A stretch of DNA of 64,000 nt from Malus domestica (Eukaryota; Streptophyta; Magnoliopsida; Rosales; Rosaceae): the NCBI RefSeq assembly GCF_042453785.1, contig NC_091664.1, positions 1 to 64,000 of the forward strand, given 5' to 3'. The notes below the pieces were generated by a model, which was not told where the DNA came from, did no database searches, and saw only the letters and a list, made by a program, of their open reading frames with translations. The position numbers and the translations under genes were made by a program. Shown piece by piece: positions 7,201 to 60,830 of this stretch. The number at the start of each line of letters is the position of its first letter. The first letter of the stretch is position 1.

Positions 7201-7308
7201 AAACAAAATGGACCAACCAAGCAAAACCCAACCAACAGCATGGGCCCAAAACAGAAAAACCTAAAGCAAGCCGAGAAAGGCCCAAAGGAAGGAAGCCCAG
7301 CCGAAGCT

Positions 7309-8500: not shown

Positions 8501-8509
8501 CCATCAGAA

Positions 8510-41129: not shown

Positions 41130-43637
41130 TCATTCAAGCTCATTACCAAACAGCAGATCATTTTTCCTCAACTCAGATTTGACCCCAAACACTTCTTTCT
41201 CTGGCAGAATAACACTCACCACTCTTCCTCCATCACCAAACTCTTTAGCCCCAGCAGGCAGCAACAAAACAGCTCCTTCATCACCAACACCTTGTATGTT
41301 ATAATGCACGCAAACCGGCTTATGTCCCTTCACTTCCAACCCATAAAAATCAACATCTTCCCAGTTCACAAACGTCAAGTTGGCTCCATACACAACAAAA
41401 TCAGCTACTCCATTCTCATTCTCTATGGCCTCTTCGATTCGTGTTTTCTCGTTCTGGCCGGCTTGCTTGGCTAGCAAGTTTGCTAGTTCTTTTGGATCCA
41501 TATCCGAAACCCTAAAATCTGCCTCAACTGTGCTTATAGTCTGACTGTTGCTGCATTCACCTTCTGTTCTCCTATTTGTATCATTTTTGCAAATTGTCAC
41601 CAATTTTGGTTGTGGCCCTTCTCTAACTGTGGCTATGCATTTCCAAATTAGGGCACAAATAAGTTCAAAAATTGGAATTTGGTCACTTTGAATTGGACCT
41701 AATATCTTGACTTGCAAGTTGTTTAGCTGCGTGGCAGTTACAGGGAACGAGAATGTTTCCATCTTGCAATTATTGGGACTTATCCAATAGTCACCAACCG
41801 AGTCCACGTGTCTGATGGAGAGTGGTGGTGGTGATGGATTTTTTGCAAGTTTTTGTTGAACATTTGTGTTCGGATTTGCATAATTTGGTAGCTTGCTGAT
41901 CTCCAGACCAGACATGACTTGCCCTAAGCCGTTGATGAAATCTGATGCTGCAAATGCATCTCCGAGGACATGAGACCAGCTGAGGCCTAGTGATATTCCT
42001 CCACATTTGAAATAAGTAACCTGCAGAAAATAAAGCATTATACCTAAAAATATTGTTTTAAAAATTTCCACTTAGCGCCATTTAGACTCTAGACGGATGG
42101 TTATCGTCCTGATTAATCCCTAAACGTTTGAATATTAAGAAAAGACGGCTAGACTTGCTTAGGCGTCCGCCTAGCCTGCCTAAGCACTTGCCTAGACTGC
42201 TTAGACCCGCTTAGGCACCCACTTAGATCACAACTCTCACCTAAACAGAAAATCGACAACTTTCATTTTGCATTTTATTTTTTTCAATAAAATATAAGAG
42301 ACTTGTCGAATAACTGATCATACACTCATTATAGCTTGTTCCTCGTATTTTTAATATGTTCTAATACTTTATAATCTATATATTATTTTATTGTAATTTA
42401 TGTATCCCAATACAATTATGTATTTTTTAAATATAAAAAATACTTATATGATATATGATAAAACATACTTGCCTAGATCCCGTCTAATTGCCTAGATGCT
42501 AGATCCCTAAATACTAGATCCAACCTCCCGCTCGACTAGCGTCCTTTCAAACCTTGTCTAAAAATACCAAAAGGTTGGTTTGTCCCTTAGCTTTTAAGAG
42601 TGTTGCATGCTAAGTCATCATAAGCCAATCAATCAAATTTAATGCCCAATATTAATGACTATTAGATTGGGAACATCAGCGTCTCTTAGAACTTGCCTAA
42701 AAATATCATTTGAATTAATTATATTTTTAAATTTAGTTCATTATTTAATACACTAATTAATTAAATGATGGTTGTGGTATATGAGGAGTCTTTCTCCTTT
42801 CTTTTCTTGGGTTTTGCAAACTATTCAAATGATGTGGGGTTTTGCAAATTTTTCAAATGATGTGGCTGTCCACATCAGATGTCACCTAAGGTGGTATAAA
42901 AATATTGTATGAATTGCATTACTTATATAAATTTGTAATGTTAAGTTATAACTCATTATGTCTTGTCCTTCAGGTTAAACGGCCGAATTTTTTTTTCTTT
43001 TATTTTTCGCAACATTTTTTCGCAAAATTTGTAACGAGTTTGATGTTAAGCTAAAAATAGCACGAATGATAAAACTAATCTGCTCTCAAATACTTCAATC
43101 ACAATAATCATATAGAAAAAGGGAAGTAACTTTTTTTCTCAACTTGTAACAAATTACTGCCAACTTTTTAAGGTCTGGATATTCTTTGATTTAAAAAATA
43201 AAAAAAATTACCTGGAAGAGAACAACTGGAGAGAAGAATAGTTCAGGGCCAATGATTTGGTTAGAAGCAAGCAGCTTCTGAAGAGAGCAGTCCAACCCTA
43301 GCCATTCATCGAGGGTTTTATCACACTGCGCTTCAAGATACCTCACACCGCAATCGTTACACTTCAGATAGGGCCGGCCGGATTCGGATCTCCGAAACCG
43401 GCCGCATGTCCGGTAGCTGACACATAACCATGTGAACATAGCTTCCTTTATGCGGTTAGTGGTCATGCCTTGGGCCGCCTGGCTATCAAAGAAGTAGACT
43501 CCTCTAAGGTAGTGAAGCTTCATAGCCAAGTCCATGCCACTCGGGTTATGAACCACGTCCGAACCGGTAACCCTGGCTGGCCCGACCGATGAAAGCTTAA
43601 TGCCATAGACCAAATTTTCTTGACTGGCTAAGACCAT
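41130..43637 (-). CDS. CER26: CER26-like protein (CER2 clade, BAHD fold), copy 2
   Basis: Exons 43212-43637 and 41130-42020 (minus) join in phase 0 at the same place as copy 1 (CTTCCAG/GTAATT; TTCTGCAG/GTTACT), giving 438 residues. HVLGD (HXXXD, 159-163) is kept and the DFGWG region is again replaced by NWEDVDFYGLEVKGHKPV. Copy 2 has three extra residues (ECS in RTEGECSNSQ) and about 15 substitutions, for example R/Q near 95, EISKLPNYANPN for EPSRLPNYAKPN, and AKEFGDGGRVVSV for AKELGDGGRVVTV. No stop, frameshift or splice-site loss is seen, so both copies look functional. The intron is 1,191 bp against 1,720 in copy 1. The inferred role is the same (very-long-chain acyl elongation for wax). 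Which copy is expressed in the epidermis cannot be told from sequence. Confidence 0.9.
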
Positions 43638-43705
43638 GGTGGTAGAGAAATGAGAGGGTGTTTGAGTGTTTAGGTTGGTGCCTAAGATTATGGTGTAGTT
43701 TGTAA

Positions 43706-43713
43706 ATATATAT
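43706..43713 (-). promoter_or_regulatory. Putative TATA box of CER26-like 2
   Basis: ATATATAT lies about 70 bp upstream of the ATG at 43637, in the same position as in copy 1. The upstream region differs by a deletion of about 240 bp relative to 13070-13270. Confidence 0.45.
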
Positions 43714-43974
43714 GTGCAGGTGAGTAGTTGAGAAAGTTAAATGAGTGGTTGAGACAGTTATGACCCCTATTGCAGATGAACTGTCAATTGGTTGGTTCAG
43801 AAGAACAGTTAAGCGGCCTTCATTAAATTTCATCGGCCCAAACCTAGAAATAGAGCAAAAATAGTTGTATTTTCGTGTAATAAAATGCCATATTTAAAGG
43901 GTAATGCTTCTTATTCCATTATCAAGTCCTTGTTCTAAATTATGATCGCAAACCTCTAATATCACTGTACAAAA

Positions 43975-44143
43975 AGAACACTACTTGGCTGCTACAAGTT
44001 CTGCAAGTAGTGGCTCTTGCTTCTATCCAATTATAGATAAACACGTATCCAGTTTGTGTTTACAATTTCAATTATTTTAGACACATGTTCATTTGTGATT
44101 GAGTAGAAGCAGGAGCTATTGTTGAATAGCCAAGTAGTGTTCT
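43975..44143. mobile_element. Miniature element, AGAACACTACTTGGCT termini (copy 2)
   Basis: This is the same element, at the same position relative to the CER26-like gene, as 13456-13624, carried along by the duplication. Termini are intact 16-bp inverted repeats. Confidence 0.75.
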
Positions 44144-45669
44144 AAAATGAACTTGTTCCATTTTGAATATTTTCTTAATAAGAAAAAAAGGATCAGTATT
44201 ATTTAATTTAAACGTTGTTAGCGTAATGCAATCACGTTAAGGTCTAATATCTTACATTTGCAATATAATATGATGTTTACAAGGTAAAATCCATTTTTTT
44301 TAATGAAAAATGTCTTTTTATCCAAAATGGTGTTTAAGATTGGCATAAGTCCTCACTTTGGTCCCTGACAGTGAAAATCGATAGACGTCGTCCTTGAGTT
44401 TGTCCATTATATGAAAAATCTGACAATATCCACGTTAAGTAGAGGGGTTGGTTTGACAAAACTACTCTTGAAAAGATTGTCACATAGTTGTTCACGTGAC
44501 AATTTGACGAGAATATTGATAATTTCTTTGCATAATGATCAAAATGATTTACAGTGGACAAATATAGGAGCTACTTCTATCAATTTTCATTGTCAGTGAC
44601 TAAAATGGTGAGTTATATTAATCTCAATGACCCTTTTAGATAAAAGAAAAAATAAATTAAAACTAGGAGCATGTTTAATAATTATTTAGTGTTTTTTTTT
44701 AGGCTTATTGTTTGGAATGCCTCATGAATTAATTTACAACCGTTACTTTACATTTTGATACTCTATATTCTTTTTGGACTAGAATTTTCTTCCCTCCTCT
44801 TTCCATTCCCTTCCATCCTCTCATCTCACATTCTCTATTTTGTCTTTCTCTTTCTATAAAAAAAATTCATATAAAATGTTGACGTGGTTTAACCATGACA
44901 GTTCAAATAGGAAGAGAGAGAATGAAAAGGGAAAAAAAAGGGGAGATAATCCTATTCCATTCTTTTTACCTGACTAACGCCTAAACCTGCAACCATTTCT
45001 ACTTTTCCTCCCTTCCATAACTTTAATGAGGGACAAAATGACTTGTTTACTCTTAGAAGTTTTTCACATAGACAACACTTGACTAAGATGGAAGAAAGTT
45101 TGATGGACAATTCGAAAATCTAACAGCATGAGAAACTTAGCCAACTATATAAGTTCAGTGAGTTATTAGATAAAATATAAATATTGCCAATGCCTTGCAA
45201 GTTCTAAGGAAAATTGGCGAATATTACCTCTAATAAAAAAATTAAAAAAATTAAAAAATCAGTTGGATAGGAAACAAGCATATGCATGATTGGTCATGTT
45301 ATTTTTATCACCTAAATATACAATAATTTGTACCATATGATATGGCTCATGATCTAACTCGCCACGTCAATTAAAAATAAATCCTTAATAAAAAAAAAAC
45401 TTTGAAATTAATCCGACCCTGATTTTTTTTTCTTATGTTTCTCCCATTCCTGCCTCCTCCTCCCTCTTCCGTCGCAGTCATGAGTCATGGCACCTAATTG
45501 CTTCTCACCGCTCCACTGATTTTTCAGGGAAGTTAAGGAAATTAATTAGGATCACTTTATTCAAGTGTATCTTTTTTGAAATTATTTATTTATTTATTTA
45601 TTTGTGAAATAAAAGTGTTATATTCAGGTGGCCTATTCATTATGTGACTTATTAATCCAAATCTCCACC

Positions 45670-45882
45670 CTCGGAAAGGGATCCTCTTTGGATCCCTTCC
45701 ATCTGAGTCTCATGACCCATAAATTCAAGCTGTTAAAATTTGATCTAACGGCTACAAACAGGAGGCTCTATTAAAAGTTATAATAACTTTAGCCATTTGA
45801 TCAAATTTCAAGAGTCCAGATTGTGTGATCATGAGGCTCAGGTGGAAGGGATCCATACAGGATCCTTTTCCTCCACCCACCA
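45670..45882. mobile_element. Foldback miniature element, GGATCAAAT family
   Basis: It corresponds position by position to 18655-18850 (GGAAAGGGATCCTC ... GGATCCTTTTCC) and was duplicated with block A. Confidence 0.65.
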
Positions 45883-46491
45883 CCAAAATCATGAAACCAT
45901 ACAAATATGGAAACACTGAATGGGGAAGAACAATAATGAGAGGCCAAACGAATTATGCAACTACTTTCCCCTTTCCTCCTTTTATCTTAAAATTTATGTA
46001 AATAGGAGCTGCTCTATGTTACAAATCAAAATTGAGGTGGAGTTCCAAATATACCACATCTAGTTTTCTCAAATGCTTAATTAGGTGAGCTTCTCAGCTC
46101 CTAACCAAATGACAACAAAAAATGCACAAGCCTTGTATATATCTCTCTCCCTGTTGTACGCAAACAATTTCACTTGGTCGCGTTTATGAAACTTTCCGTT
46201 TTGAATGAATTAGCCGTTGGGGAAAACCACCTGTTGAATCCAAATAGCGAGCCCGTCGCCGAGCATGCGATTACGTGTTGAGTGTGTCCCCGTGACGTGT
46301 GACGACATTTGTGTTTGAGACGTGTTGAGTCATGATCACTGCAACAGTGCTTGATCACATGAACGCAGCTAGAAATCTCAAAAACCGTCGAAGGTGCCCA
46401 GAGTACGCCTTTGTAGCTTTTGCTCTAGTGTGGTCCTATCAAGGGTTGACCACACCACAGTTACGAGGTGAAGTGTACCCATTTGAGTTGT

Positions 46492-46821
46492 TCAATATGG
46501 AATGACATACGGCAGGGCATGAACATCAGCGGACTCTATCCGCAGAACCTCTGACCATCCCTCAGGTGTCTCCTCAAATCCTGAAGATTCCACCTTGGGT
46601 TTCTTTGATTGGGCATCACTGCACCCAAACAACCAATCTTGATCGTCATGATCAGGCACTTCGTCCAACTTCGGAACCAAATAAACATGGCTTAGATATC
46701 TGGAATCCGGATAGGGTGGTCTCATGCATGCTTCAGCAACAGGAACAACCTGTGTAGCTGTAGATGTCGGCTTTGCGGTGGAGACAGCCGATGACGGAGC
46801 TTCAACAATGCCATTTATCTT
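46492..46821 (-). pseudogene. 3' end of a lysine-rich protein gene copy
   Basis: It encodes, in frame and with the normal stop, the C-terminal part of the protein at 54541 (PDSRYLSHVYLVPKLDEVPD, then HDDQDWLFG and ALPYVIPY). At 46821 it is cut off; the sequence beyond (GAACCATACCGAAATTCC) is unrelated to the gene. There is no start exon or exon 2. It has no frame lesion, unlike the copy at 19461. Confidence 0.85.
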
Positions 46822-46956
46822 GAACCATACCGAAATTCCGAAAAAAATTCGGAAATTCCGAAATTTGGGAATAACGAAATTTCGGTTTTGGTTTCTGAAA
46901 CCGTGTCCTAAAAAGAAATCGGTTTGGAATTTGGGATTCCATGGCGAACCAGCCCT
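46822..46956. mobile_element. Fragment of a CCGAAATTCCG-rich element
   Basis: GAAATTCCG/CGGAAATTCC repeats are followed by CGGTTTTGGTTTCTGAAACC and end at GGCGAACCAGCCCTAG. Ends of the form CTAGGGCTGGTTCG occur on plant hAT-type elements as I remember them. It lies at the join between truncated block A and block D copy 3. Confidence 0.35.
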
Positions 46957-47698
46957 AGTTGTTCACGTGACAATTTGACGAGAATATTGATAATGTTTTT
47001 GCATAATGATCAAAATGATTTACAGTGGACAAACATATGGGCTACTTCTATCAATTTCTATTGTCAGTGGTGGTGAGTTATAACAATCTCAATGACCATT
47101 TTGGATTAAAAAAAATTAATTAAAAGTACGAGCATGTTTGATAATTATTTAGTTTTTATTTTTTGAGGCTTATTGTTTGGAATGCCTCGTGAACTAATTT
47201 ACAATCGTTACTTTACACTCTAAAACTCGATATTCTTTTTACCTCATTAACACCTAAACCTGCAACCATTTCTACTTTTCCTCCCTTCCATAACTCTTAT
47301 GGCACGTTTACGTAACTATAATCAACTATGGAGGAATTAGATTAAGGAGGAATTGAATTAAGGAGGAATTGGATTGAGCAGAATCAAAATCCAGATTTCC
47401 ATAAAAGCTGTTTACTAAAGTATTCTGGAATCATAATAGAAACAGTATTGAATACATAAAACTGTTTACTAATTCAACAGAATTGAAATATAAATCATCA
47501 GAATTACTAAAATACCCTTGCCACAATTCCTTTTATATGCTTATTTTCTTTTACTACAATTTGATATTATATAATAGTAAAAATTAAAAAATAAATAAAA
47601 ACTCATTTATCTTATTTTGCTCAACACTCTACAGTCGCATCTTCTTCCTTTTGATTTTTCTCCCCATTTTTTTCTCTCCTCCTCCCTCTCTTTTTTCT

Positions 47699-48261
47699 GG
47701 GAAATTTGGAAAAATAACCAAATTTTAGATCTCATATAGAATTATAACCACTATTTTAATTTTATGATAATTATAACCAAAACTTGATGTAAAAGTATTA
47801 ATATACCCTTAATACTAGGGTTTCTTATAACAACCACAACACAACCTTTAAACTACCTTAAAATGTTGAGGATTACTGCAGATTGAGGCCACTGAATTAG
47901 ATTTCTCTTTAATTAGCAGGACAAGCTACTAATTCCATGGCTAATTATTATTTTTTTAATTAGATACTTGGATTTAGTGTTTCATTGACTAAATTGCATA
48001 CATTCAGATATATTTTTCTAGTGGATGAAGAAGAATATGAAATTGCATATGCAAAGTGAATAGTGAAAGCAAAAAAGTGATGAAGATTAATTTCTCATTT
48101 TAAGATAGTTTAAAGGTTTGTTTTGGTTGTTGTGAGAAACCCTAATATTAAGGGTATATTAGTACTTTTACATCAAGTTTTGGTTATAATTATCATAAAG
48201 TTAAAATAGTGGCTATAATTCTATATGGGATCTAAAATTTGATTATTTTTCCAAATTTCCC
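47699..48261. mobile_element. Long-inverted-repeat element, 563 bp
   Basis: The left arm (GGGAAATTTGGAAAAATAAC, GATCTCATATAGAATTATAA, AAACTTGATGTAAAAGTA) is mirrored by the right arm (TACTTTTACATCAAGTTTTG, TTATAATTCTATATGGGATC, TTTTTCCAAATTTCCC), with arms of at least 150 bp. The flanks (CTTTTTTCT / TTGTTATCT) match only partly as a 9-bp duplication. A MULE-like miniature element is the best guess. Confidence 0.7.
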
Positions 48262-48265
48262 TTGT

Positions 48266-48385
48266 TATCTACCCGGAAATATCATTCTATGAAATGGGGC
48301 AAAAAGATTATTCTTCTCCTCCTTCCTCTCTATGTTACCTACCCGGAAATATCATTTTATGAAATGGGTTAGAAAAGTATTCCTC
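48266..48385. repeat. Tandem duplication of about 72 bp
   Basis: TTACCTACCCGGAAATATC, ATGAAATGGG and CTCCTCCTTCCT occur twice in the same order (from about 48266 and 48338) inside the PIF/Harbinger-like element. Confidence 0.65.
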
Positions 48386-48874
48386 TCCTCCTTCCTTTGT
48401 TTTTATTTCCTTTTCTTTCCTCTCTTCCTTTGTTTTTCCCATTTTTCCTTTGCTCCTTCCTCTCTTTGTTACCTACTCCGCCGTCAGTACAGGTTAGATT
48501 TCAAAGGAATGGATCTTCAGATCCGAGAATTCACGTGCGCGCGACTAAGCTTCTGACGGCTACTTCGATCCTCACTTCGGTACCGTGCATGCTAAGATGG
48601 CGGTGCAGGATGCTGAAGCAGTAAGGGAGTCGGCGAGAGAAAGAAATAGATGAAGGGGAGGGTTGGGTGCTAAAGCGTTTTAAGGGCATTTTGGGAACGA
48701 AAGTATGATTCCAGATGGAGGCTTTCACCCGAAGTGGGATTACCACCTCCATCTAAGTAATCCAATTCCTCCTAAATTTGGAATTGAATTCCTATTTTTG
48801 AGTGGACCCCACCATGTTCCCATTCCCATAAAGATTAGTAAACACTAGAATCCTTTCAATTGGGGAATGATTCA

Positions 48875-49210
48875 TGTTGATGCACAAAACCGGAGGTCTT
48901 GGAACAACGTAAATCCGACCGTAAATCTGCAAGTAATGTAAATAACACAAAGGTTATCGTGGTTCACCCCAAGGTTTAGGCTACGTCCACACTGATATTG
49001 TATTTCTGAGGGGGAGAGAGAGAGAGCTTGAGGGGGTGAGGAGCCTTAGGAATTTGCATCCCTTAATTGTGAAGGTGAAGAGTCCTTTTATAGAATAAGG
49101 GCTCCTTACTTATTACATATTTGTCCCTTCCTTTATTACATAATTATATTTGAGTCCCCCGAGTATTTATAAGAGATCTAAATACGGAAGCCCTAAGTAT
49201 GGTATAAACA
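48875..49210 (-). repeat. 3' LTR of the non-autonomous element
   Basis: 336 bp, closely similar to 52113-52449. It has a GAGAGAGAG run near 49015 and the CTTTTATAGAATAAGGGCTC motif that also recurs in the internal array. Confidence 0.85.
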
Positions 49211-49429
49211 GTAGTCCCCCAAGTCTTCAGTCAAGAGAGTATTTTGGCTTGAGATTTGAAATTTAGTCCATGTGTGGGCCGAAGTAACTAGATGTTGCCT
49301 TGAACTGGTACTTTATATGAGGCGGTGCTCAAAGTGAAATGATGCTCAACTATAAGTAGCACATGTTGCGAGGCTGCTCGGTTTATGGCTTATGTTGCCT
49401 TGGTTGGCTCGGTTTGTGGCGCTTGAAGG

Positions 49430-49790
49430 TGAGGGGGTCCCTTTTATAGAATAAGGGTTCACTCCTCAATACATAAATGATGGGCTAGAGTTGATGCTCG
49501 CGGTGAGGCGGTTGCTCAGTAGGCGGCGATGCTCTCTAATGGTGGTGAGGGAGTCTCTTTTATAGAATAAGGGCTCGCTCCTTAATACATAAGTGATGGG
49601 TTAGGAGTGATGCTCGCGGCGAGGTGGTTGCTCAGCTGGCAGCGTTGCTCTCTAATGAAGGTGAGGGAGTCCCTTTTATAAAATAAGGGCTCGCTCCTCA
49701 GTACATGAATAACGGGTGCTCTCTAATGAAAGTGAGGGAGTCCCTTTTATAGAATAAGGGTTCGCTCCTTAATACATAAATAATGGGCTA
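49430..49790. repeat. Internal array 1 (about 100-bp units, about 4 copies)
   Basis: Units share GTGAGGGAGTCCCTTTTATA, GAATAAGGGCTCGCTCCT and ATGCTCGCGGxGAGGxGGTT. Part of the motif also occurs in the LTR, so the array may have grown from an LTR-derived seed. Confidence 0.7.
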
Positions 49791-49962
49791 AGTCCCCCAA
49801 GTATTTTTCATGAGGCCCAGTTAAGGCTCAATATATGGTACATAATGTAGTCCCCCAAGTCTTTGGTCAATAGAGTCTGTTGGCTGGAGACTTCAAATTG
49901 AATCCATGTATGGGCCGAAGTAGCGGTTGTTCGAAGGCGGTATTCGTATACCCTGCACTGAA

Positions 49963-50135
49963 GCTTTCTAGGTGAAGCTTTGCAAGTGAAGCTTTGCAAG
50001 TGAAGCTTTTGAAGCTGGAGCTTTTGTAAATGATGCTTTGAAAGCTGGAGCTCTGTAAATGAAGCTTTTGAAGCTAGAGCTCTGTAAATCAAACTTTCGA
50101 AGTTGGAGCTCTGTAAATGAAGCTTTTGAAGCTGA
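49963..50135. repeat. Internal array 2 (about 30-bp units)
   Basis: GAAGCTTTTGAAGCTGGAGC and TCTGTAAATGAAGCTTT recur 5-6 times with variations. Arm-like GAAGCTT/AAGCTTC symmetry is present. Confidence 0.75.
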
Positions 50136-50290
50136 TTGACATGAGTGGTGTTCATGAATGTTTATATTGATTGACATGAGTGATGCTCATGGATGTTGAC
50201 ATGAGTGATGCTCATGAATGTTTATGTATGATTGATATGAGTAATGCTCATGAATGTTTATGTATGATTGTCATGAGTAATGCTCATGTA
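50136..50290. repeat. Internal array 3 (about 33-36-bp units)
   Basis: TGACATGAGTGATGCTCATG followed by AATGTTTATxT is repeated about four to five times. Confidence 0.75.
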
Positions 50291-50296
50291 TAATTT

Positions 50297-50745
50297 AGAG
50301 TACTGGGCGTACTTTTGATCACCTAGTTGGTGGCATGAAGGAGAGTACGGGTTGTACATTTCATCACCTGGTTGGTGGCATGAATGGCTAGTTGCCAAAT
50401 GATATTAAAGTATGGGTTGTACTTTTATCACCTGGTTTGTGGTAATAGCGGCAGGTTGCCGAATAATTTTAGAGTATTGGGCGTACTTTTGGTCACCTGG
50501 TTGGTGGCATGAAGGAGAGTACGGGTTGTACATTTCATCACCTAGTTGGTGGCATGAATGGCTAGTTGCCAAATGATATTAGAGTACGGGTTGTACTTTT
50601 GATCACCTGGTTTGTGGTAATAGCGGCAGATTGCTGAATAATTTTGGAGTACTGGGCGTACTTTTGGTCACCTGGTTGGTGGCATGAAGGAGAGTATGGG
50701 TTGTACATTTCATCACCTGGTTGGTGGCATGAATAGCTAGTTAGG
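50297..50745. repeat. Internal array 4 (about 180-bp units)
   Basis: Units contain GTACTGGGCGTACTTTTG, ATCACCTGGTTGGTGGCATG and GAGAGTACGGGTTGTACATT in fixed order, with about 2.5 copies at starts near 50302, 50474 and 50650. Confidence 0.75.
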
Positions 50746-51249
50746 GCCTGGCTCTTTTGGGCATATGGGCCTTCGCCTTCCACATGACATTGCAGCCCAT
50801 TTATTTTAGGCTTTGCCGTTTTTTTTTTCTTTTTACCCTCTGATGGGGTTTATACAGATATCTCCGAAAGATACGAAAAATAAATTACATCATTAAAAAA
50901 TAAGGAAAGTAAACCACATCACTCTGGTGGGGTGTTTATTCCTAGCTTTTGCAGTGTGGGTGTTTATTCATTGCTTTTGCTTGTGTTTTTCTGCTGCACT
51001 CTCTCTGTCTCTTCATCTGGCAGACAGAAGGAATCATAATAATACGAAGATCTTTTGTTTTTCTTCTTTTCTCTCCACTGCGTCTCTGTCTTTTGTTTTT
51101 GTGCCGCAGCTCACTTGATTGTTTTCCTTTCTGCTTTCTTCTTTTGCTTTTCTCTTTTCTGTTGCACGCTATCTGTCTCTTTCCACCTTCATTTATGCTT
51201 TAATTATTATGTTGTTGCTCCTTTAGCACTCATTTCCTTTTACTCTTCC

Positions 51250-51381
51250 CTCAATAAAGCTAGCAATAGCACTAGTGTCCAATCCATTTGGATCTGTCGA
51301 GGCAGAAAGTGCTTCGAAAATCATTGCATTGCACACTGGGGCAGGTATTACATTAGATGAGCCTGTCGAGGAATTATCCGC
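51250..51381 (-). pseudogene. Fragment resembling TRB (single-Myb-histone) GH1 domain
   Basis: Forty-four codons read on the minus strand end in NAMIFEALSASTDPNGLD then TSAIASFIE. This resembles the start of the GH1/H5 linker-histone domain of plant telomere-repeat-binding factors (pattern: aliphatic, FEAL, PNG, AI, FIE). The Myb and coiled-coil parts are absent. It lies in the sense direction of the LTR element, last in the series of captured pieces. Confidence 0.6.
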
Positions 51382-51416
51382 AACTGGAGTTGTATCGCGT
51401 CTGACCGAAGTTTCTG

Positions 51417-51620
51417 TTAATGCTTACGGAGGAGAATTTCGACCTGCTGTTGTTGCTGAGCCATTTGCATGGAGGACACTGTGCCTTCATACGCCAATGT
51501 CGACATGCCCTGTCTTTGCTTATGCTTGGGGTTGGCTGTGCAAATCACGAAAACAAGCCCGCGACGCTTAACTGTCTTACAAAACTCACACATCTTCTTC
51601 ACAGATGAACGCACCTTCAT
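51417..51620 (-). pseudogene. Captured copy of mitochondrial ribosomal protein bL36
   Basis: From ATG at 51620 the minus strand reads [20 protein letters not shown], then [20 protein letters not shown] and LAYEG, ending at TAA in 51417-51419. This is the bL36 signature with its Cys/His zinc ligands (C11, C14, C27, H32). The later part ([16 protein letters not shown]) also looks family-like. The frame is open. It has no promoter of its own here and would have to be read from the LTR. It lacks the introns expected of a plant copy over this interval, but the donor gene's structure is not known to me. Confidence 0.75.
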
Positions 51621-51627
51621 GGCTACC

Positions 51628-51780
51628 CTCGCGGAGGGCATCAGCATCTGGGTAGAAGAAGAGGCGGTGAACGGCCCAGTTAAGAGTGTCTTTGAGGGCT
51701 CGCCTGTAGAGGATCTGAACCTTCTCCTTCTGAGCTGCTTGACGAGCTACGTACACTACTGTTGAAACTCCGCTCATCAA
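51628..51780 (-). pseudogene. Captured N-terminus of complex I subunit NDUFB9 (B22)
   Basis: The minus strand reads [20 protein letters not shown], then [19 protein letters not shown] and [12 protein letters not shown]. This is the LYR-motif N-terminus of the plant B22 subunit (LYRRALK). The rest of the protein is missing; the reading passes directly into the bL36 piece in another frame. Confidence 0.75.
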
Positions 51781-51818
51781 TCAAGGCAGAGAGACAAGAC
51801 AAAGAGATGAGAGATTTG

Positions 51819-51980
51819 ATTCCCTGAATCTGCCTTGCTAGATTTGCCAGAACCAGTGCCTTTCTTGCCGGAGATGGAGTCGTCGAAAGAGATCAGGCGG
51901 TGCTTGTAGATGCGGTTGGTGGGTTCCGGGATCCATACCCGAGAGAGATTGGATCGGAGCAGGTCCATGGGGTCGAGCAT
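51819..51980 (-). pseudogene. Captured N-terminus resembling UBP14
   Basis: After MLDP the minus strand reads MDLLRSNLSRVWIPEPTNRI then YKH, which matches the N-terminus of the plant ubiquitin-specific protease UBP14 as I remember it. After YKH the sequence (RLISFDDSISGKKGTGSGKS) departs from that family and may come from yet another gene or an untranslated region. The catalytic domains are absent. Confidence 0.65.
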
Positions 51981-52092
51981 CGCTCTCTGTGTCTTTGTGG
52001 GTTTTTACAGATTTTGCGAATTTTGCAGATTTTGCATATTCACGGCGGAGGTGAAAAAATGAAAAAAAAACCGACACAACTTTTAGTATCGA

Positions 52093-52112
52093 TTCCCACA
52101 AACGACGCCAAA
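52093..52112 (-). promoter_or_regulatory. Primer-binding region of the LTR element
   Basis: TTTGGCGTCGTTTGTGGGAA directly follows the LTR on the minus strand. It resembles the TGGCGCCGTxTGTGGG sequence next to the 5' LTR of many plant Ty3-type elements and fixes the element's orientation. Confidence 0.6.
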
Positions 52113-52449
52113 TGTTAATGCACAAAACCGAAGGTCTTGGAACAACATAAATCCGACCGTGAATCTGCAAGTAATGTAAATAACACAAGGGTTATCATGG
52201 TTCACCCCAAGGTTTGGGCTACGTCCACACTGATATTGTATTTCTAAGGGGGGGGAGAGAGAGAGCTTGAGGGGGTGAGGAGCCTTAGGAATTGGCCTCC
52301 CCTAATTGTGAGGGTGAGGAGTCCTTTTATAGAATAAGGGTTCCTCACTTATTACATAGTTGCCCCTTCCTTTATTACATAATTATATTTGAGTCCTCCG
52401 AGTATTTATACGATATCTAAATACGGAGGCCCTAAGTATGGTATAAACA
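52113..52449 (-). repeat. 5' LTR of the non-autonomous element
   Basis: 337 bp, differing from 48875-49210 by scattered substitutions and small indels. It would drive transcription leftward through the captured gene pieces. Confidence 0.85.
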
Positions 52450-53045
52450 ATTCCCTTTCATTTCATCTCATACCCGATGCGTAAACACGCCATTAGTGAG
52501 GGACAAAATGACTTGTTTACCTTCAAAAGTTTTTCACATAGACAACACTTGACTAAGATGGAAGAATGTTTGATGGACAATTCGAAATTCTAAAAGTATG
52601 ATAAACTTAGCTAACTATATAAGTTCAGTGGATAATTGACTAAAATAAAAATAAATTGCCAATGCCTTGCAAGTTCTGAAAAAAAATTGACGAATATTAC
52701 CTCTAATATAAAAAAAATCAGTTGGATAGGAAACAAGCATATGCATGATTGGTCATGTTATTTTTATCACCTAAATATACAAAAATTTGTACCATATGAT
52801 ATGGCAGATTATCTGACTCGCCACGTCAATTAAAAACAATTCCTTAATAAATAAAAATTTTGAAATTAATCCGACCCTGATTTTAGGTTCTTTTGTTTCT
52901 CCCATTCCTGCCTCCTCCTCCCTCTTCCGTCGCCGTTATTGGCACCTAATTGCTTCTCACTGCTCCACTGATTTTTCAGGGAATCTAAGGAAATTAATTA
53001 GGGCCACTTATTTTATTCACGTGCACCTTGTTTGAAATTAATTAA

Positions 53046-53560
53046 TTTTTTTTTTCAAGGGAAAGCGTTGTATTGATTCTAATCAACTCATAAAGAGCTA
53101 TATATGTCTGGGAGGAGAACATCCTGAATGAGAGTAGGAGGCTTCTCAATCCAAATTAAATTATTGTTACTAGTCAAAGCAAACTTTGCAAGACGATGGG
53201 CAACCACGTCATATAAACGAGAACATGAATAAAATTCAAAATAGAGAAGGAGGATGCAACCTGCAAAACATCATCCGCAATCAAACCTATTGCTGACGAG
53301 TCTGAATAGGTCCTATTACGTGTTTGTAGTGGCCTTCATGAACTCACTCTCCACCACAACCTGATCAAGACCCTGCTGATGGATTAGTTGGATGCCGTGA
53401 CTCACAGCAAACAGCTTCAGGAGCGGCACAGATGAGATGCCTGGATATTGCCACACCCCAGCCGCCAAAAAACCCCCCACCAATCCCATATCACAGCTCC
53501 AACACCACCCAGCTTGGTATTGACTTGTGTAGCTCTTCATGAGTTTCTCCAATATTTAAC
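53046..53560 (-). mobile_element. LINE 3' fragment with RNase H-like segment
   Basis: On the minus strand, 53316-53552 reads GWCWSCDMGLVGGFLAAGVW, then QYPGISSVPLLKLFAVSHGI and QLIHQQGLDQVVVESEFM. The last part matches the pattern (A.. HG.. LGLxxVxVESD) of the RNase H-type domain at the C-terminus of plant LINEs. The strand ends in a run of A (TTTTTTTTT at 53049-53057 on plus). The fragment separates block D copy 3 from block A copy 3. Confidence 0.6.
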
Positions 53561-53891
53561 ATATGTGTTAGAAATGTCAACGATATATATCGATTTAGTC
53601 TAAATTTGAGAGTTTCTCCGATATGAGTTGAAGTTTAGACTTCACTCTCCATTTCCATATCTTTATCTGGTTCTTTGGATATTTCCAAGGACATATAGAC
53701 CGTGTCGAAGAAATTTTAAACACTAGTACCAGACCGTTTTCCTGCCACACTGAAAAGTGTGTGAAAGACTCAAACGACTATAGCAAACTTCTCAGACACT
53801 GATCACAATCAGTCATTTTTAACTCTTGCAAGTATAAGGTCTTAATTCATTTTCCTTAGACAATGAGTACAATTGTAATTTATAGCCAACC
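53561..53891. other. Unassigned 330-bp spacer
   Basis: It contains GATATATATCGAT and two GAGAGTTTCTCCxATAT segments (about 53539 and 53610). No gene or clear transposon end is visible. It is absent between the blocks at 15.1 and 45.6 kb. Confidence 0.4.
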
Positions 53892-54540
53892 CGTTATGTG
53901 ACTTATTAATCCGAGTCTCCACCCTCCACCAAAAACATGAAACCAATACAAATATGAAATATGGAAACACTGAATGGGGAAGAACAATAATGAGAGGCCA
54001 ATCGAATTATGCAACTACTTTCCCCCTTCCTTCTACTATCTTACAATTTATGAAAATAGGAGCTGTTCTATGTTACAAATCAAAATTGAGGTGGGGTTGC
54101 AAATATACCACATCTAGTTTTCTCAAATGCTCAATTAGGATGAGCTTCTCAGCTCCTAACCAAATGACAACAAAAAATGCACAAGCCTTATATATATCTA
54201 TCTCCCTTTCTACGCAAACCATTTCACTTGGTCGCGTTTATGAAACTTTCCGTTTCGAATGAATTAGCCGTTGGGGAAAACCACCCGTTGAATCCAAATA
54301 GCGAGCCCGGTCCCCAAGCATGCCATTACGTGTTGAGTGTGTCCCCGTGACGTGTGACGACATTTGTGTTTGAGACGTCTTTCTAGCTTTTGCTCTAGTG
54401 CTTGATCACATGAATGCAGCTAGAAAACTCAAAAACTGTCTAAGGTGCCCGGAAGCCTTTGTAGCTTTTGCTCTAGTGTGGTCCTATCAAGGGTTTGCCC
54501 ACACCAGAGTCACGAGGTGAAGTGTGCCCATTTGAGTTGT

Positions 54541-57500
54541 TCAATATGGAATGACATACGGCAGGGCATGAATATCAGCCGACTCTATCCGCAGAACCTC
54601 TGACCATACCTCAGGTGTCTCCTCAAACCCTGAAGATTCCGCCTTGGGTTTCTTTGATTGGGCATCACTGCACCCAAACAACCAATCTTGATCGTCATGA
54701 TCCGGCACTTCGTCCAACTTCGGAACCAAATAAACATGGCTTAGATATCTGGAATCCGGATGGGGTGGTCTCATGCATGCTTCAGCAACAGGAACAACCT
54801 GTGTAGCTGTAGATGTCGGCTTTGCAGTGGAGACAGCCAATGACGGAGCTTCAACAATGCCATTTATCTTGCAGTCCTTAATGTCCACCTTAACGTTATT
54901 TGCAGCACCCAGCGTATCTGAAACATATGGGATGGAAGTTTGGCAAGATTCCAGTGTTCTCCCATTTACAGGCAATGAATGAGAGGAAGAGGAAGGTCTC
55001 AACAGTTTACTGGGCCTAATATCATTGGCTGTAAGATCAGAAAAGGAAGCATCATTAGTCAGCTAAGAATAAAAATTACCAAAGCTTGAACCTGCTTGAC
55101 AAAATTGATTCAAGAGCACTGCCAATTGACTGATACCAAACTGGAAAACAACAATATTCGGAATCAAAGGAAGCAGAGGATAGCAGAATCCAGCTTTAGT
55201 TCCAAAAAGTGCACCTACAACCTTCCTCAGTTGTGCAAAAAGAGCCCAACTTGTGCTAGACAACTACATAGCATGATTGGGATCCAACGATGATACTTAG
55301 CGTCATAAAAAAGAACTCACCATGCACAATTCCATTCGTCTGTATGTCCTTTCTTTTCTTCAGATTTCCATCAGCACCAGCACTTTTGTTGCTGTCCTTC
55401 GAAAGTTGGGAGGTTTTGACACTATGGGAATCTATGTGATCCTCTTTATCGCTCTTTCTTAATTTATCAGGCTTTGCATTCTTAGTTTCATTTTTCTCCT
55501 TTGCTTTCTCTTCCTTTTTCTCCTCTTTGTCTGGCTCTCCATTCTTGGATTCATTTTTCTCCTTTGCTTTCGCTTCCTTTTTCTTCTCTTTAACTTTGTC
55601 CTTGTCTCTCCCTTGTTTTTTCTTCTCTCTATCTTTTTCCTTGCGTTTTTCTCCTCGTTTATCATCACCTTCCTTCTCTTTGGCCTTTTCTTTTCCATCA
55701 ATATCTCTATCCATGTTGCTTGCCAATGGTCTGGAAAGTCCTTCAACTTTAGGTTCAACGACACCAACAAGGTTCTGAACCATCGTGTTCCCACTAATCT
55801 GTGCTGCACCCCTGACTCCTTGCCCATATGTCCTTCTGTCATCAACTCTCCTGTCCTTGTTCTTTTCCTTAACTTCGGCCAAAATGTCAGTACCCTCGGC
55901 CAGCAATCTGACCATCCCCTCATCCTTCTTTCGGTCTGATTCAGTAATCTTCCCAACCAGATGGTTACTGATTGCCCTGGCCTCATCTTTACTCCTCCTA
56001 CCCAACTCCACCAATACAGAATTCTGGTTTTGCTCAGCCGGATGACAGTACTGACTGAGTTTCTCTGCCTGATGACCTCCAATTTGCCCCGTATATCTCT
56101 TGTCAATACAGTTGCCCTTGTACTCTTTCTGAATGTATCTCTCTTCACCATGACCCTCGGTCTTTCCTGGAACTCTCTTCTCGTCTGAAGTACTTGTTTT
56201 GTCTTTAACCAGGTCCCTATCTTTCTCCTTATCCTTCTTTTTGTCTTTCTTTTTTTCCTTCTTGTCTTTCTTTTCCCGATGCTTTCCTTCACTTTTATCT
56301 TTACTCTCTCTCTTCTCTTTGTCCTTCTTTTCCTTTTTATGCTTCTTTTCTCTGTGTTTCTCCTGTAATTATTGAAAAGTTATAAAAGAATAACTGGTAA
56401 GGATATATAATCAAGGTAATCATATCTACTGCTGTAATAGATACAAATAAATAAAGAGGCTTCAGGGAATCCATACTGATTAAATAGATAATAAGGACTG
56501 ACTTGCGAGAAATACCACAGAAAACAACCAAATCTAAACCTGAGTGAATTCTTTCAGTCTTTGGACAATATACTATTGATGTCTACTGATATGTCCACCG
56601 TCCAAACGTACCCCATACCAGTAAAGATCCTTGCTTTCCTTTTCAAAAGATCCCAAAAACCAGAAAAGAACAAAGGATAACAAATGCTCACAGTTTTCAA
56701 ATAGTTTTGGCACTTAAACTATCAAATACATAGTTTTTGAAGAAATAAAACATTCTGTGAATGGTAGTTTTTGAAGAAATAAAACATTCTGTGAATGGTA
56801 CACGAAAAGTGAAATAAACCTACCATCACTCGCTTGAAAATTAAAAAAAAAACTTTGTTTTATACATGGGAAGTGTTATTGGCACTCCAAAAATCTCATT
56901 CTACACTCCTCACAAGTGTATTTTTCTTTCTAAAAAGTTTGGAGTGTAGAATGAGAAATTTGGAGTGCCAATAACAATTCCCTTGTACATAACCGGAAGG
57001 GGAAAGAAAAAAAAATTAAAAAATATTTTTTAGGTAATAGAAATTACAATTAAATGACATGTACAAAGCAGTGTCACTAGTGCATCGGAAGCGCAAAATT
57101 GTACTATGCCAACAACCACCACCCACCAAATCATTGCAACATAAGAACCACCATAAAATTGTTTCCTCACAAATAAAATTTCAGAACTTAAATAGGAGAA
57201 GAGAATACTAGCAAGACAGACAGTCAAGTACAAAGTAAGAACTTCAGGCTTATAAGATGGTGCAGAAATAAGATATACAAAGGCAATCTGAAACCAAAGT
57301 TCAAGACAAGTAAAACAGGAAAAACAACCAAAAAAGAAAATTAGAACATTTTGAATACAAACCAACAATAAAGACTGATCATCAAAAAGCCGTTATCACC
57401 AAGTTAAAGGAGAAGCAATACAAGGAAACTTCTTTGGTTCATAGCCAACTTCCTACGCGGTGTCCAAAACAGAATACAGTTAACAATTATCCATACTCTC

Positions 57501-59636
57501 CAGTCTTCATCAATCATATCCTACCATATAAAAAAAATTAGCAATCCAAACTTCAGGGGACAAAGAGCTCATTTGGATGTGCTTTTAAAATGATTGAAAG
57601 CGCTTTTGGTAAAAATGTTTTAGAACCAATCCTTAGAAAAAATGCAAGTAAATCCTGAAAAATCACTTAAAGTGCTCCTTGGAAGAAGCACATAATTGGT
57701 GCTTCTTGCAAAAAGCATTTTTAAGTGCTTTTGGAACCCAAAAATATTTTCTCAAAAAGCGTTTTTCAGTCATTTTAAAAGCACATCCAAACGAGCCCAA
57801 AGAAAGGAGGATAAAGAGATCAAGACAAGCAAATAGGGAATGAGAAAACAGAAAAGAAAGGAAGATTGTACAACATGATAAAAGCCCAAATCACAAAGTA
57901 AAAGAGAAAAAATGACAAAAGACATTTCCCCCTAAAATCCAGGAAATTTGAGCCTGTTGATTCCCAAAACAAATTCTATCCCAGAATCTCTCCATTTCCT
58001 CACCCTAAATGTTTCTTTTTCGGAGAAAAGAAATAATTTTATTGCAACAAAGACTATAAAACAATAAAATAAAATGCAGTCAAGAGGACCACTAAAGGAA
58101 AATAGAAACGCATGAGGGAAACAAACCCCTCCTAAAATCTGAAAAAAATAGCAGGCCCACAACATCATGGACTCCCTGCCAAATTAGTAGAGAAAGGAAT
58201 AAGTTTAAATTCATTAGAAGACAGAAGCCTAGAGAACAGACCAAAACTGGACCTTATCCCATAGCTCCTCAGCCCCCACACCAACATAGCCTTTAAAAGC
58301 TCTTTATTTCTTTCCGTCCAGACCACACAAATCACAGCAAGAACTAAACACCCCCATATAACTCTTGCCTTCTTGCCCCTACTAAAACTCAATAAAAGAC
58401 AGCAAGGAGAGAAATTCCTCCATTTCACCTTCGTTCAGATTCGTACCCCTAATATTTTCAGAACCCTATTACTTCTCAAAAACACGTGCACAATTTAGAT
58501 ATCACCAAATACACACTAGCTCCAAACAGTTTGTGTGCCAAGCTTTAATGAAAGCATACAACGAGGAATAGATAATCTATACTTCCAGGTTCTTTTTGCA
58601 CATGATGCATCAATGCTGGGCTAGACTAGGCATCCCTTGAATAATATCACAAGTATTGGCTCCACTTTGAGAAATAATCCAGGCCTATAAGATGAAATTG
58701 GGGACTGGACGAATATGACATGACAGTATGTTTAACTAGCTGGTGATTTGTATTGGAATCCTTAAACTATGCGAGACCCATTGCTCAGTATAAGCTCAGT
58801 TTATGCATCAGAACATATCATCAAGATATAATTGGAATCTGATAGTCCTAGCACTAGAAAAGAAAAAGGCCTCGGAGTACTGATCCAACTTAGAGAGTAA
58901 CATAAACTATTGCTGATTCAACATGGCCCCACTGAACATGAATAGAATATGTTCTCCTGGTCACCAGGTGACCAAGGAATGCATGGCCACTAACCCTTAG
59001 ATTTGATATCGAAGCTTGAGAATTAAACATGAAAAGCAGCACCAATTATTCTCTGCCCCTGATATCAAATCCAAAGGTGGGTAACCATAAATCCTTAGTA
59101 AGAGCGGGATTCGAACATGAATTGGGTCACACAAAAATCAACCTAATAGTCGCTAACTGGCAAAATGACGATGATTATTTTTACTGGACTTCAACACGCA
59201 GGCAAGAAAAGCATTCAACAAATGTAATTGATTAGAAATCAGGACAAAATGACCAGTTATGCCCAGCAATTACTGGACTCTAACTGGCACCTGTATCTTT
59301 ACTTGCTCCATATTTTCTAATTATATTTGTTCGAAACTATAGCATTACTGAAATAGACAATCTTCAGTCATGACAATACTTATTTTGTTTGCGTATCGAT
59401 GAGTAAGCCATACTAGTTAATTGCTGGAACTCACTTGTATGTGCCTAACAAATGATTATTTCATTTTACCATTTTATCTTTTTGATAAATCATGTCCGTA
59501 ATGAATGTCATACGAAATAAAAGATATTAATGAAACAATAAAAGGAAAGAATTTTAACCTTTTTCAGCAAGTCAACATCATCTGTCCTAGTCTTTTTTTC
59601 ATATCCAGGTGGAGGAAATGGAAAGCAGCGCGACAT
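54541..59636 (-). CDS. Lysine-rich charged protein, plant family, function unknown
   Basis: Coding exons 59559-59636, 55321-56362 and 55028-54541 (minus) join cleanly (AAAAAG/GTTAAA, TTACAG/GAGAAA; GCATG/GTGAGT, TTACAG/CCAATG) to give 535 residues. The short first exon encodes MSRCFPFPPPGYEKK then TRTDDVDLLKK, the conserved start of this plant family. Residues 27-370 are very rich in Lys, Glu, Asp and Arg (EKKHKKEKKDKEK; KEKKKEAKAKEKNE), probably disordered with coiled-coil tendency and many nuclear-localisation-like runs. A conserved C-terminal block lies at 463-492 (HPDSRYLSHVYLVPKLDE, DHDDQDWLFG). Automated pipelines call such proteins myb-like protein X or DNA ligase 1-like from low-complexity matches; no Myb or ligase domain is visible. 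The 3,196-bp intron after codon 26 holds miniature elements and a LINE fragment. Two broken copies lie at 19461 and 46492. Confidence 0.88.
56868..56982. mobile_element. Miniature element, GGGAAGTGTTATTGGCACTC family
   Basis: The ends GGGAAGTGTTATTGGCACTC and GAGTGCCAATAACAATTCCC are inverted repeats of about 20 bp with one mismatch. TTATACAT and TTGTACAT flank it (7 of 8), and copy 1 of block A (about 20388) has one uninterrupted TTATACATAACC. It lies in intron 2 of the lysine-rich gene. An 8-9-bp duplication suggests a MULE or hAT miniature element. Confidence 0.85.
57565..57798. mobile_element. Miniature element, GAGCTCATTTGGATGTGC family
   Basis: Left arm GAGCTCATTTGGATGTGCTT then TTAAAATGA; right arm TCATTTTAAAAGCACATCC then AAACGAGCCC. 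Block A copy 1 (about 23925) reads GGACAAAGAAAGG without it, so AAA is the apparent 3-bp duplication. Internal arms (GTGCTTCTTGCAAAAAGC) add further symmetry. I know close relatives as very common elements in apple and pear genomes. Confidence 0.82.
58015..58440 (-). mobile_element. LINE 3' fragment in intron 2 of the lysine-rich gene
   Basis: Bases 58165-58428 on the minus strand read ARVIWGCLVLAVICVVWTER then NKELLKAMLVW, the pattern (W..C..A..W.IWxERN) at the C-terminal, zinc-binding end of plant LINE reverse-transcriptase polyproteins. The fragment is 5'-truncated, as is usual for LINEs, and is absent from block A copy 1, whose homology ends at its left edge. Confidence 0.65.
58930..59130 (-). 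mobile_element. Possible SINE-like remnant in intron 2
   Basis: The minus strand has GTTCGAATCCCGCTCTTAC, a good tRNA-type B box, followed by CCACCTTTGGATTTGATATC and, after about 60 bp, a second AGATTTGATATC-like arm (58990-59015 on plus). No A box or target duplication was confirmed. Confidence 0.3.
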
Positions 59637-60830
59637 TGCATAAAGCCTGACAGTACCAAAAACCAGTATCTTCCAATGAACAAAAAATTAGTTTCCAGTA
59701 GCACTGTTCCAGAAAGGGAACGAACCAGCAACTATGCTCCTGTCCATGCACCATGTCCCCGCATTCATTCCCAGTATCAAAAATCCGCCATTAGCTTCTC
59801 AGTCACTTCAACCAGTCCTTTAATCCTTTTCACACAGATGTGCCGGCACGTCAATGAGATATCACACCAAATTCACTTGAAAAATCAAGGCTCAGCACAA
59901 GCACGACCTCAATGTAAACAACTGCAACACAAATCCGAACTAACTACTCCAAAAGCTTTTCTGCCAAGAATGTTGTTCAAACTAAGTTAACCAGAATGGT
60001 TTTTTGAGAAACAAAAAACAGTCCACCACAACCTAATCGTCTGTGTTGCCTTATGGGCCAATACAATATATCCAATATATCAGCTACCCCTTATTACCAA
60101 ATACCAAAACGAAATTGATTCCCAGCTGAAGATCAAGCATGTAAAAGCAGCAAAAACCCAGAAGCCCTTTGCTCCAAAATAACGATTCGGCAAGTCTCTG
60201 ATCACTCCTGTACCCAATTCAATATGTGCAATCTTCTTCCATGCTTAGAAAAACAACACTTTCCATAATTCTATGCAATCTCAGAGTTTATGTACTCACC
60301 CAGCACTGCCAAATCCACAATTCCATTCCCCGAAAGATCGGAGCTTATGCTCATTCGATGCAGGGCCGCGATGATCCCAATACTACTCAGTTCCTTGCAC
60401 TGATCAAACCCTAATTGGTCCAAAACTGCAGAATTGGAGCAGTACCCAGTTGCGATCCAACAAAAGCCTAAAAAACCCACCAAGAAAGGAAACACCCACT
60501 ACCAAAAACCCTAATCCCACTCCTCAAACAAAAAATTAAGGGCAAAAATTCAAAACTTGAAGAAAAAGAAAAAAGAAAAGAGAATCGACCCACTTTACAA
60601 TTTCAATTTTTATTTCGTGGATATCGATCAAAAGGGTAAAAGAGAGTGGATTCAAAGCGTCAATGAGAAAATCTGCGAAATCTGAATTATGGGTATTTGA
60701 TAAATAACTGGTGAGATTACCTCGTCCACTACAAAGTGGGCAATGCAGAATGAAAGAGGAGATCTCTCTCTGTCTTTCTCTGATAGAACCCAAATCTTAA
60801 CCCTAGCTCAACCTTAACTCTTACACATGG
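59637..60830 (-). other. 5' UTR of the lysine-rich gene with one intron
   Basis: A donor at GGACGAG/GTAATC (exon end 60721) and an acceptor at ACTGTCAG/GCTTTATGCA (exon start 59646) would place a 1.07-kb intron inside the 5' UTR, ten bases before the ATG at 59636. The upstream exon (60721 to about 60830) is C/T-rich on the minus strand with CCCTAGCT-type leader sequence. Long 5' UTR introns next to the start codon often raise expression in plants; that is only a possibility here. Confidence 0.55.

Follow-up and report, generated by a model that had tools for sequence, protein, structure and literature searches.

Host transcript fragments as variable cargo in a non-autonomous LTR element family of apple

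The first 64,000 nucleotides of an apple contig (Malus domestica, NC_091664.1, positions 1 to 64,000; contig C4 in our numbering), referred to below as the window, harbour at positions 48875-52449 a minus-strand long terminal repeat (LTR) element of 3575 bp (3.6 kb) running from 52449 to 48875. In place of gag and pol it carries pieces of several unrelated host genes, all in sense orientation. Judging from introns that are precisely absent, this material appears to have been taken from transcripts, most of them spliced. The element belongs to a family whose ends are shared and whose interior differs from copy to copy. Multi-gene exon capture by LTR elements is already known, from Bs1 and from soybean elements; what is new is a family whose ends stay constant while the core, largely of host origin, keeps changing. 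We tentatively propose, at slightly less than even confidence, that only the ends are inherited here and that the interior is continually rewritten from the host transcriptome by template switching together with splicing of host exons.

Element architecture and donor genes

In element direction, a 337-bp 5' LTR and a primer-binding-site-like (PBS-like) motif come first. The leader of 121 bp gives way to cargo of about 770 bp, which a purine-rich linker and 1.75 kb of tandem-repeat tail connect to the 336-bp 3' LTR. The LTRs are bounded by TGTTTATACC...CA and differ by 17 transitions, 5 transversions and 1 indel across 336 aligned bases (Kimura two-parameter distance 0.069). An LTR pair of 336/337 bp enclosing neither gag nor pol had been predicted from the sequence alone, and this is borne out: the longest stop-to-stop frame comprises 117 aa, and a Pfam search of six open reading frames (ORFs) returned no such family. 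The window element is thus non-autonomous. Its target site duplication (TSD), ATTCA/ATTCC, is identical at 4 of 5 bases, and perfect 5-bp TSDs are found in all three relatives examined (L064, L065 and L067). The PBS-like site is present as well, its exact place being 52091-52110 on the minus strand (TGGCGTCGTTTGTGGGAATC) instead of the 52093-52112 given originally; TGGCGCCGTCTGTGGGAA occupies the equivalent place, a putative primer-binding site, in 9 of 21 relatives, the remaining ones being 1-3 bases off.

Donors and relatives were sought in 651 Mb of genome sequence in 19 contigs. A genome search with the window cargo (45 rows) combined with local alignments recovered donor places at 90-99% DNA identity, so that chance protein matches are rejected. 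Donor genes were located for all four pieces named in the original prediction (UBP14, NDUFB9, bL36 and TRB), which lie within the LTRs and all face the element direction. UBP14 exon 1 is 91% identical to its donor on C11 and 88% to the homeolog on C3; two joined exons of the C11 donor match USP5 (2.2e-21), and the piece by itself gives no PDB or Pfam match. The NDUFB9 piece matches plant complex I NDUFB9 in the PDB (5e-20). The bL36 piece, described beforehand as almost complete, indeed spans positions 1-38 of the 38 of PF00444 (6.4e-21, Pfam), the gene itself, read by eye, running on past the captured exon. The GH1 domain of the TRB piece is weak in the element (PF00538, 0.0026, under the curated cut-off); the donor on C2 reads by eye as a TRB gene with Myb and GH1 domains, the upstream exon being the Myb domain. 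As far as they go beyond the Pfam or PDB family shown, the names UBP14, TRB, HUA2, PYL, ISD11 and AATP are presumed ones, in part taken from translations read by eye, and the homeologous pairing of contigs (3/11, 5/10, 2/15, 9/17) is likewise presumed. Three further small pieces lie between the named ones, two of them, matching C17 and C1, between UBP14 and NDUFB9 and one, matching C16, between bL36 and TRB. The features of the element, in its own direction, are as follows.

52450..52454, no strand: upstream TSD copy ATTCC, 4 of 5 bases as in 48870-48874
52113..52449, minus: 5' LTR, 337 bp, from the LTR comparison
52091..52110, minus: PBS-like site TGGCGTCGTTTGTGGGAATC, with a similar motif at the equal place in 21 relatives
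51992..52112, minus: family leader from 5' LTR to cargo, from 40 scored places of 1563 first-look candidates
51901..51991, minus: UBP14 exon-1 fragment, ATG at 51980, donor C11:32649637-32649754, homeolog on C3
51824..51869, minus: small piece, match C17:24243686-24243731, second match on C9, collinear with q45-90 of the sister copy L011
51794..51823, minus: small piece of 30 bp, match C1:10581665-10581694, only its first 21 bases placed exactly
51646..51778, minus: NDUFB9 exon 1 from ATG 51777, donor C10:8244271-8244404, homeolog on C5
51627..51645, minus: first 19 nt of NDUFB9 exon 2, fused to exon 1, intron absent
51468..51626, minus: bL36 coding exon, 159 bp, ATG at 51620, 99.4% to donor C2:2385624-2385782, homeolog on C15 94%
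51422..51471, minus: piece matching C16:25209746-25209799, 4-nt CATG overlap with bL36
51335..51421, minus: TRB, 3' part of the exon preceding the GH1 exon, donor C2:6253437-6253526
51250..51334, minus: TRB GH1 exon, spliced to the exon before, donor C2:6252483-6252568
50958..51249, minus: last part of the TRB-linked block plus purine-rich linker, from sequence comparison
49211..50957, minus: family 3' tail of tandem repeats, units of 13-175 bp, also in relatives
48875..49210, minus: 3' LTR, 336 bp, from the LTR comparison
48870..48874, no strand: downstream TSD copy ATTCA, compared with 52450-52454

A sister copy on C5, L011, holds the same UBP14-NDUFB9-bL36 block. The search with its cargo (33 rows) yielded six extra matches, at C17:24243686, C1:10581665, C16:25209746, C4:18997215, C12:6234786 and C17:89509, the first three of which are present in the window copy too. 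Since the place on C1 adjoins leader-like sequence, the C1 piece may perhaps derive from another family copy. The bL36 exon of the window copy carries 1 change per 159 bp versus about 5.5 expected from the LTR divergence (P 0.027); as bL36 is one of several pieces, selection on it is not claimed.

Missing introns, start codons and block structure

Five introns were read at sequence level, namely those of TRB, of NDUFB9 between exons 1 and 2, of the bL36 5' untranslated region (UTR) in L011, of AATP in L016 and of the PWWP gene in L070. All five show GT...AG in the donor and are exactly absent from the element. Two more are missing as judged from coordinates, one of the LYR gene in L068 and one at a C2 place in L100, a copy picked since no protein was recognised in its cargo. 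The expectation that fragments were captured from 5' exons or from transcripts thus stands as far as transcripts are concerned, with donor loci found and their introns not kept. The TRB piece of the window as well as AATP and PYL in L016 are internal gene fragments.

The natural start codons on which that expectation had been built are real: the UBP14, NDUFB9 and bL36 pieces begin 11, 1 and 6 nt upstream of their ATG, respectively. Capture starting at start codons as a rule is nevertheless rejected in view both of these internal fragments and of L011, whose UBP14 and bL36 pieces came with upstream sequence: L011 aligns to the UBP14 donor about 150 nt upstream of the ATG and also keeps the spliced bL36 5' UTR. 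The comparison of both copies indicates that the row of start codons goes back to three different later or incidental events, partly trimming. Read by eye, the upstream part of UBP14 is missing from the window copy between two CACAGA repeats, and NDUFB9 meets the preceding piece at a common GATGA. Moreover, 177 bp which in L011 lie between NDUFB9 and bL36, with GT at the start and AG at the end, are gone from the window copy. For a random loss of 177 bp the chance of such ends is about 0.008 (about 1 in 130) when a one-base slide is allowed; given this one-base ambiguity at the ends, plain deletion is possible.

Mosaic cargo is not peculiar to the window copy. Among the closely mapped cargos L016 draws on three donors, L070 on five donor places within 1 kb (its entire stretch occurring again on C7 at 92%) and L011 on about nine matched places. 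Joints consist of 0-6 nt overlaps, with one of 22 nt in L011, and of unassigned gaps of 4, 16 and 52 nt. UBP14-linked blocks are found in L011, L013, L014, L017, L019, L025, L030, L032 and L033, the TRB block in L015, L016, L018 and L020. As the window copy alone, among it and the block-bearing relatives listed, holds both, it would seem to have arisen by recombination between two cargo lineages, an L011-like one with UBP14/NDUFB9/bL36 and an L015/L016-like one with TRB. At the recombinant joint L011 reads ...CGCAAGC and L016 GGCATCAACAG; an attempt to trace the recombination in LTR segments gave no resolution. The LYR piece of L068 is 93% identical to its donor and unmatched in C8:3947317, C15:40537188 and C8:5832446, whose remaining cargo is 83-85% identical, as if the newest capture had joined at the 5' side. 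The chain of starts had suggested that chimeric transcripts might be made; the window cargo reads as three separate ORFs of 67, 63 and 67 aa and encodes no long chimeric protein. In L016, by contrast, AATP (C17), PYL (C4) and TRB (C2) lie in one open frame of 289 aa (L016:832-1698), a candidate chimeric gene.

Cargo diversity and orientation across the family

Relatives were collected by an LTR query (4216 first-look candidates, 40 scored) and a leader query (1563 candidates, 40 scored). The sample consists of 12 of rows 3-15 of the LTR list, row 9 having been dropped as the L016 element, and of the 28 non-window loci of the leader list; its copies were accordingly chosen by LTR or leader and not by cargo. 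L062, with nested LTRs and no cargo in range, was left out of the counts. The window stretches 3770-8889 and 42000-60119 are repeated, element included, near C4:1.70-1.73 Mb (C4:1703208-1728327). There, 12 of 20 probes of 120 bp match exactly, 10 of those at a single offset, and about 31 kb of the window are absent; the probable cause is a duplication, either of the assembly or of very recent date, and the window element and its repeat were counted as one copy.

Of the 40 sampled copies, 39 have non-family sequence where the cargo lies, with both borders visible in 18 and one in 21. In an all-against-all comparison, stretches of at least 500 bp are common to five pairs, which yields 34 cargo groups in the 39 copies; shorter sharing occurs in more pairs. 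Other family members thus carry mostly different cargo. The groups rest on the compared stretches (at most 1.5 kb after the leader for the 28 leader-picked copies, 1.7 kb before the tail for L066, L068 and L071), beyond which extra sharing is possible.

Pfam was applied to ORFs of at least 55 aa from 11 LTR-picked stretches (81 one way, 82 the other) and of at least 72 aa from 27 leader-picked ones (106 sense, 57 antisense), L080, a 99.9% copy of L079, being left out. Each gene was counted once, the RING-type families, found in a single ORF with DUF1117, as one gene. At E<=1e-4, 25 distinct host families lie in sense orientation and 1 in antisense (sign test 8e-7). Without re-orienting L063 the ratio is 24 to 3 (sign test 4.9e-5); we give both counts, as L063 was re-oriented after antisense hits had appeared, its stretch having proved to be cargo of a family member in inverted orientation. 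The sense families are YTH, pectin methylesterase inhibitor, auxin canalisation, MADS (SRF-TF), triosephosphate isomerase, LYR, proton pyrophosphatase, L22e, PWWP, mitochondrial carrier, protein kinase, thaumatin, GH17, RbcS, RING/DUF1117, GAPDH, pectinesterase, ARPC3, PEX11, tubulin, DUF1666, FMN reductase, TRAP-beta, FtsJ and JAB. Gag and pol families are absent among the 10 and 25 sense Pfam families listed for the 38 sampled stretches (1 of 26 not being listed). Relatives picked by cargo add TLC transporter (6.7e-60), L12, NAPRTase, LRR and DEAD.

To tie hits to single copies, 30 ORFs were scanned by Pfam. A host family at E<=1e-4 is present in at least 17 of the 39 copies (L063, L064, L068, L069, L070, L071, L072, L077, L079, which is the same place as L037, L082, L086, L087, L089, L090, L092, L094 and L097), with two different families apiece in L063, L068, L069, L070 and L089. 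Weak hits are RSN1_TM (0.0051, L078) and LRRNT_2 (0.0008, L081). No Pfam family at E 0.01 was returned for 14 of the 30 ORFs (L065, L066, two in L067, L073, L084, L085, L091, L093, L095, L098, L101, L102 and L103), some of which read by eye as host proteins.

At L063 (C16:24130800-24135500) two family members adjoin in opposite orientation, the inverted one holding thaumatin and protein-kinase pieces; about 890 bp of cargo are common to L063 and L082 (C13), and thaumatin is found in L082 too. By eye, a piece of a Copia polymerase is recognisable in L085:2035-2532, for which Pfam gave no family, and a piece of a reverse transcriptase of a long interspersed nuclear element (LINE) in L071:2216-2731. 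Transcripts of other transposons may hence be captured too.

Mechanism, rival explanations and known systems

Taken together, the sense bias, the spliced templates, the short overlaps at joints, the reused blocks and the TSDs suggest that reverse transcription proceeded by copy choice between element RNA and co-packaged host RNAs. We consider it quite likely that the cargos arose by repeated template switching between element RNA and such host RNAs, mostly spliced, followed by recombination and amplification. The family would then be a large non-autonomous one in which LTR, PBS-like site, leader and tandem-repeat tail are shared and enclose a mosaic of host cDNA. Particles supplied by an autonomous partner would take up element RNA together with host RNAs. 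During minus-strand synthesis, as junctions, sense bias and missing introns suggest, the reverse transcriptase would switch template, often at a few nucleotides of shared sequence, copy segments of at least one host RNA and then go back to the element RNA. The new copy would integrate with a 5-bp TSD and be amplified, in keeping with the TSDs and duplicate cargos of relatives, and later rounds would recombine and trim the cargo, as the shared blocks indicate. The cargo itself is most likely filler and not a selected gene.

Several observations weigh against this mechanism. One family, HMG-CoA reductase (L089:2218-2843), is clearly antisense, in a cargo that also holds a sense piece of the JAB family, and weaker antisense hits exist for WHIM1 (0.001), OSCP (0.0014) and Pep_M12B_propep (0.0038). 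For 22 of the 39 sampled copies no Pfam host family could be tied to the copy. In L011, NDUFB9 extends 8 nt into intron 2, the sole partial exception to exon-only pieces, which suggests that some templates were incompletely spliced. Finally, a number of fragments end in 3' direction at, or at most 1 nt from, a real or possible splice-donor GT, which random switching does not predict: UBP14 (L030/L032), PWWP exon 2 and the C12 and C16 pieces end at or next to it, bL36 and TRB within 1 nt. Such ends are what one would expect if host exons were spliced to an acceptor inside an element lying in or downstream of a host gene, the chimeric RNA ending in the 3' LTR and being reverse transcribed with intact element RNA by a single template switch near the leader. 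Splice-mediated capture of this kind would likewise account for the sense orientation, the clean joining of exons and the frequent 5' gene ends, and the GT...AG ends of the 177 bp lost from the window copy speak in its favour. Other ends, however, lie inside exons or introns (UBP14 of the window, NDUFB9, MADS, the C5 piece, AATP, PYL and the C4 and C12 pieces of L011). In addition, the pattern at exon ends was spotted after the data had been seen, and the C12 and C16 pieces were placed without gene structure. We regard capture mostly by splicing as rather unlikely, though the fragment 3' ends keep such a route in play.

Far less probable is a capture of genomic segments at the DNA level, as by Pack-type transposons or Helitrons. 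Pack-MULEs capture and shuffle several genes, and in the many unrelated genes per element and their shuffling the apple family resembles them; the comparison with Pack-type elements drawn in the original prediction is apt in this outcome. It fails for the mechanism, since what Pack elements copy is intron-bearing DNA, whereas the apple family apparently copies RNA. For the cargos read, the introns missing at exact splice borders contradict DNA-level capture, and the strong sense bias and the presence of LTRs and 5-bp TSDs without terminal inverted repeats (TIRs) likewise argue against it. Equally improbable are an ordinary host gene cluster or independent LINE-type retrocopies inserted between two LTRs. 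Retrogenes would be intron-less too, but the slot is filled with non-family sequence almost throughout the sample, blocks are common to dispersed copies, and the mapped pieces are short, mostly abutting or overlapping by 0-6 nt with some gaps of 4-52 nt. An ordinary cluster is rejected on account of the filled slot across family copies; neither this outcome nor a lack of matches to the four families, either of which would have told against the original prediction, was encountered.

In maize, the LTR element Bs1 combines parts of three host genes into a chimeric gene (PMC13317346), the parts having been captured as exons only (PMC4717578). The window element resembles it in that exon-only pieces of at least two unrelated host genes lie between its LTRs, and differs in that Bs1 holds a fixed set of three genes, whereas copies of the apple family hold differing sets and shuffled blocks. 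Gene-bearing terminal-repeat retrotransposons in miniature (TRIMs) such as GmaRetroS15 of soybean comprise 30 elements in 7 of 289 subfamilies, of 1.2-1.4 kb, 2 of them with more than two genes (Gao et al. 2016, PMC4717578). They share with the apple family the form of small non-coding LTR elements, intron-less exon fragments of up to three genes, 5-bp TSDs and later amplification. In the apple family, by contrast, capture is widespread among sampled copies and extends to about nine donor places, and the window element, with LTRs of 337 bp and 3575 bp in total, exceeds the size of gene-bearing TRIMs. LTR elements of maize, rice and sorghum hold captured gene fragments (PMC2774510, PMC3726574). 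For maize, 425 elements going back to at least 189 captures are reported, and under the conditions used no element turned up that combined pieces of two or more standard nuclear genes (PMC2774510); the three closely mapped apple cargos (window/L011, L016 and L070) are all multi-gene.

Retand elements (Ty3) possess tandem repeats between coding part and 3' LTR, and non-autonomous members are known (PMC11963269). The lineage is defined by reverse transcriptase phylogeny; in the apple element no pol was found, the likeness is confined to the tandem-repeat tail, and the cargo sits in the position of gag-pol. Large retrotransposon derivatives (LARDs) have a large conserved non-coding core replacing gag-pol and usually exceed 4 kb (PMC4668562). 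The window element does not fit this class: its internal part measures 2.9 kb, and the family shares ends and tail, its cargo being unconserved with 34 groups in 39 copies. Pack-MULE and Pack-TYPE elements are DNA elements carrying exons and introns (PMC4717578); in place of TIRs and intron-bearing cargo the apple element has direct LTRs and cargo that appears RNA-derived. Transduced sequences are usually sense (PMC7264820), with which the apple family agrees. A survey of pear LTR elements lists TRIM and LARD families, and the terms "gene fragment" and "captured" occur nowhere in its available part (PMC4668562). Judged by titles and the openings of abstracts, with subscription papers largely outside, literature searches brought up no account of the family itself, nor of a comparable one in apple.

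Descriptions of LTR elements that capture host genes have so far mostly concerned scattered events, with one gene per element in the maize survey. Widespread capture in one family makes the mechanism directly testable, as its copies record which RNAs were packaged, where switches occurred and in which order. The family may steadily supply chimeric genes as well as small RNAs directed at the donors, and may give rise to false gene models in genomes like that of apple. If its interior is indeed continually rewritten from the transcriptome, it would correspond, at the RNA level, to Pack-MULEs and Helitrons and could generate multi-gene chimeric cDNAs by the hundreds, spliced and in sense orientation, some of them with intact frames such as AATP-PYL-TRB in L016.

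We would finally mention a 153-bp inverted repeat that adjoins the window element (47699-47851 and 48109-48261, 92% complementary), possibly a miniature inverted-repeat transposable element or a fold-back element.

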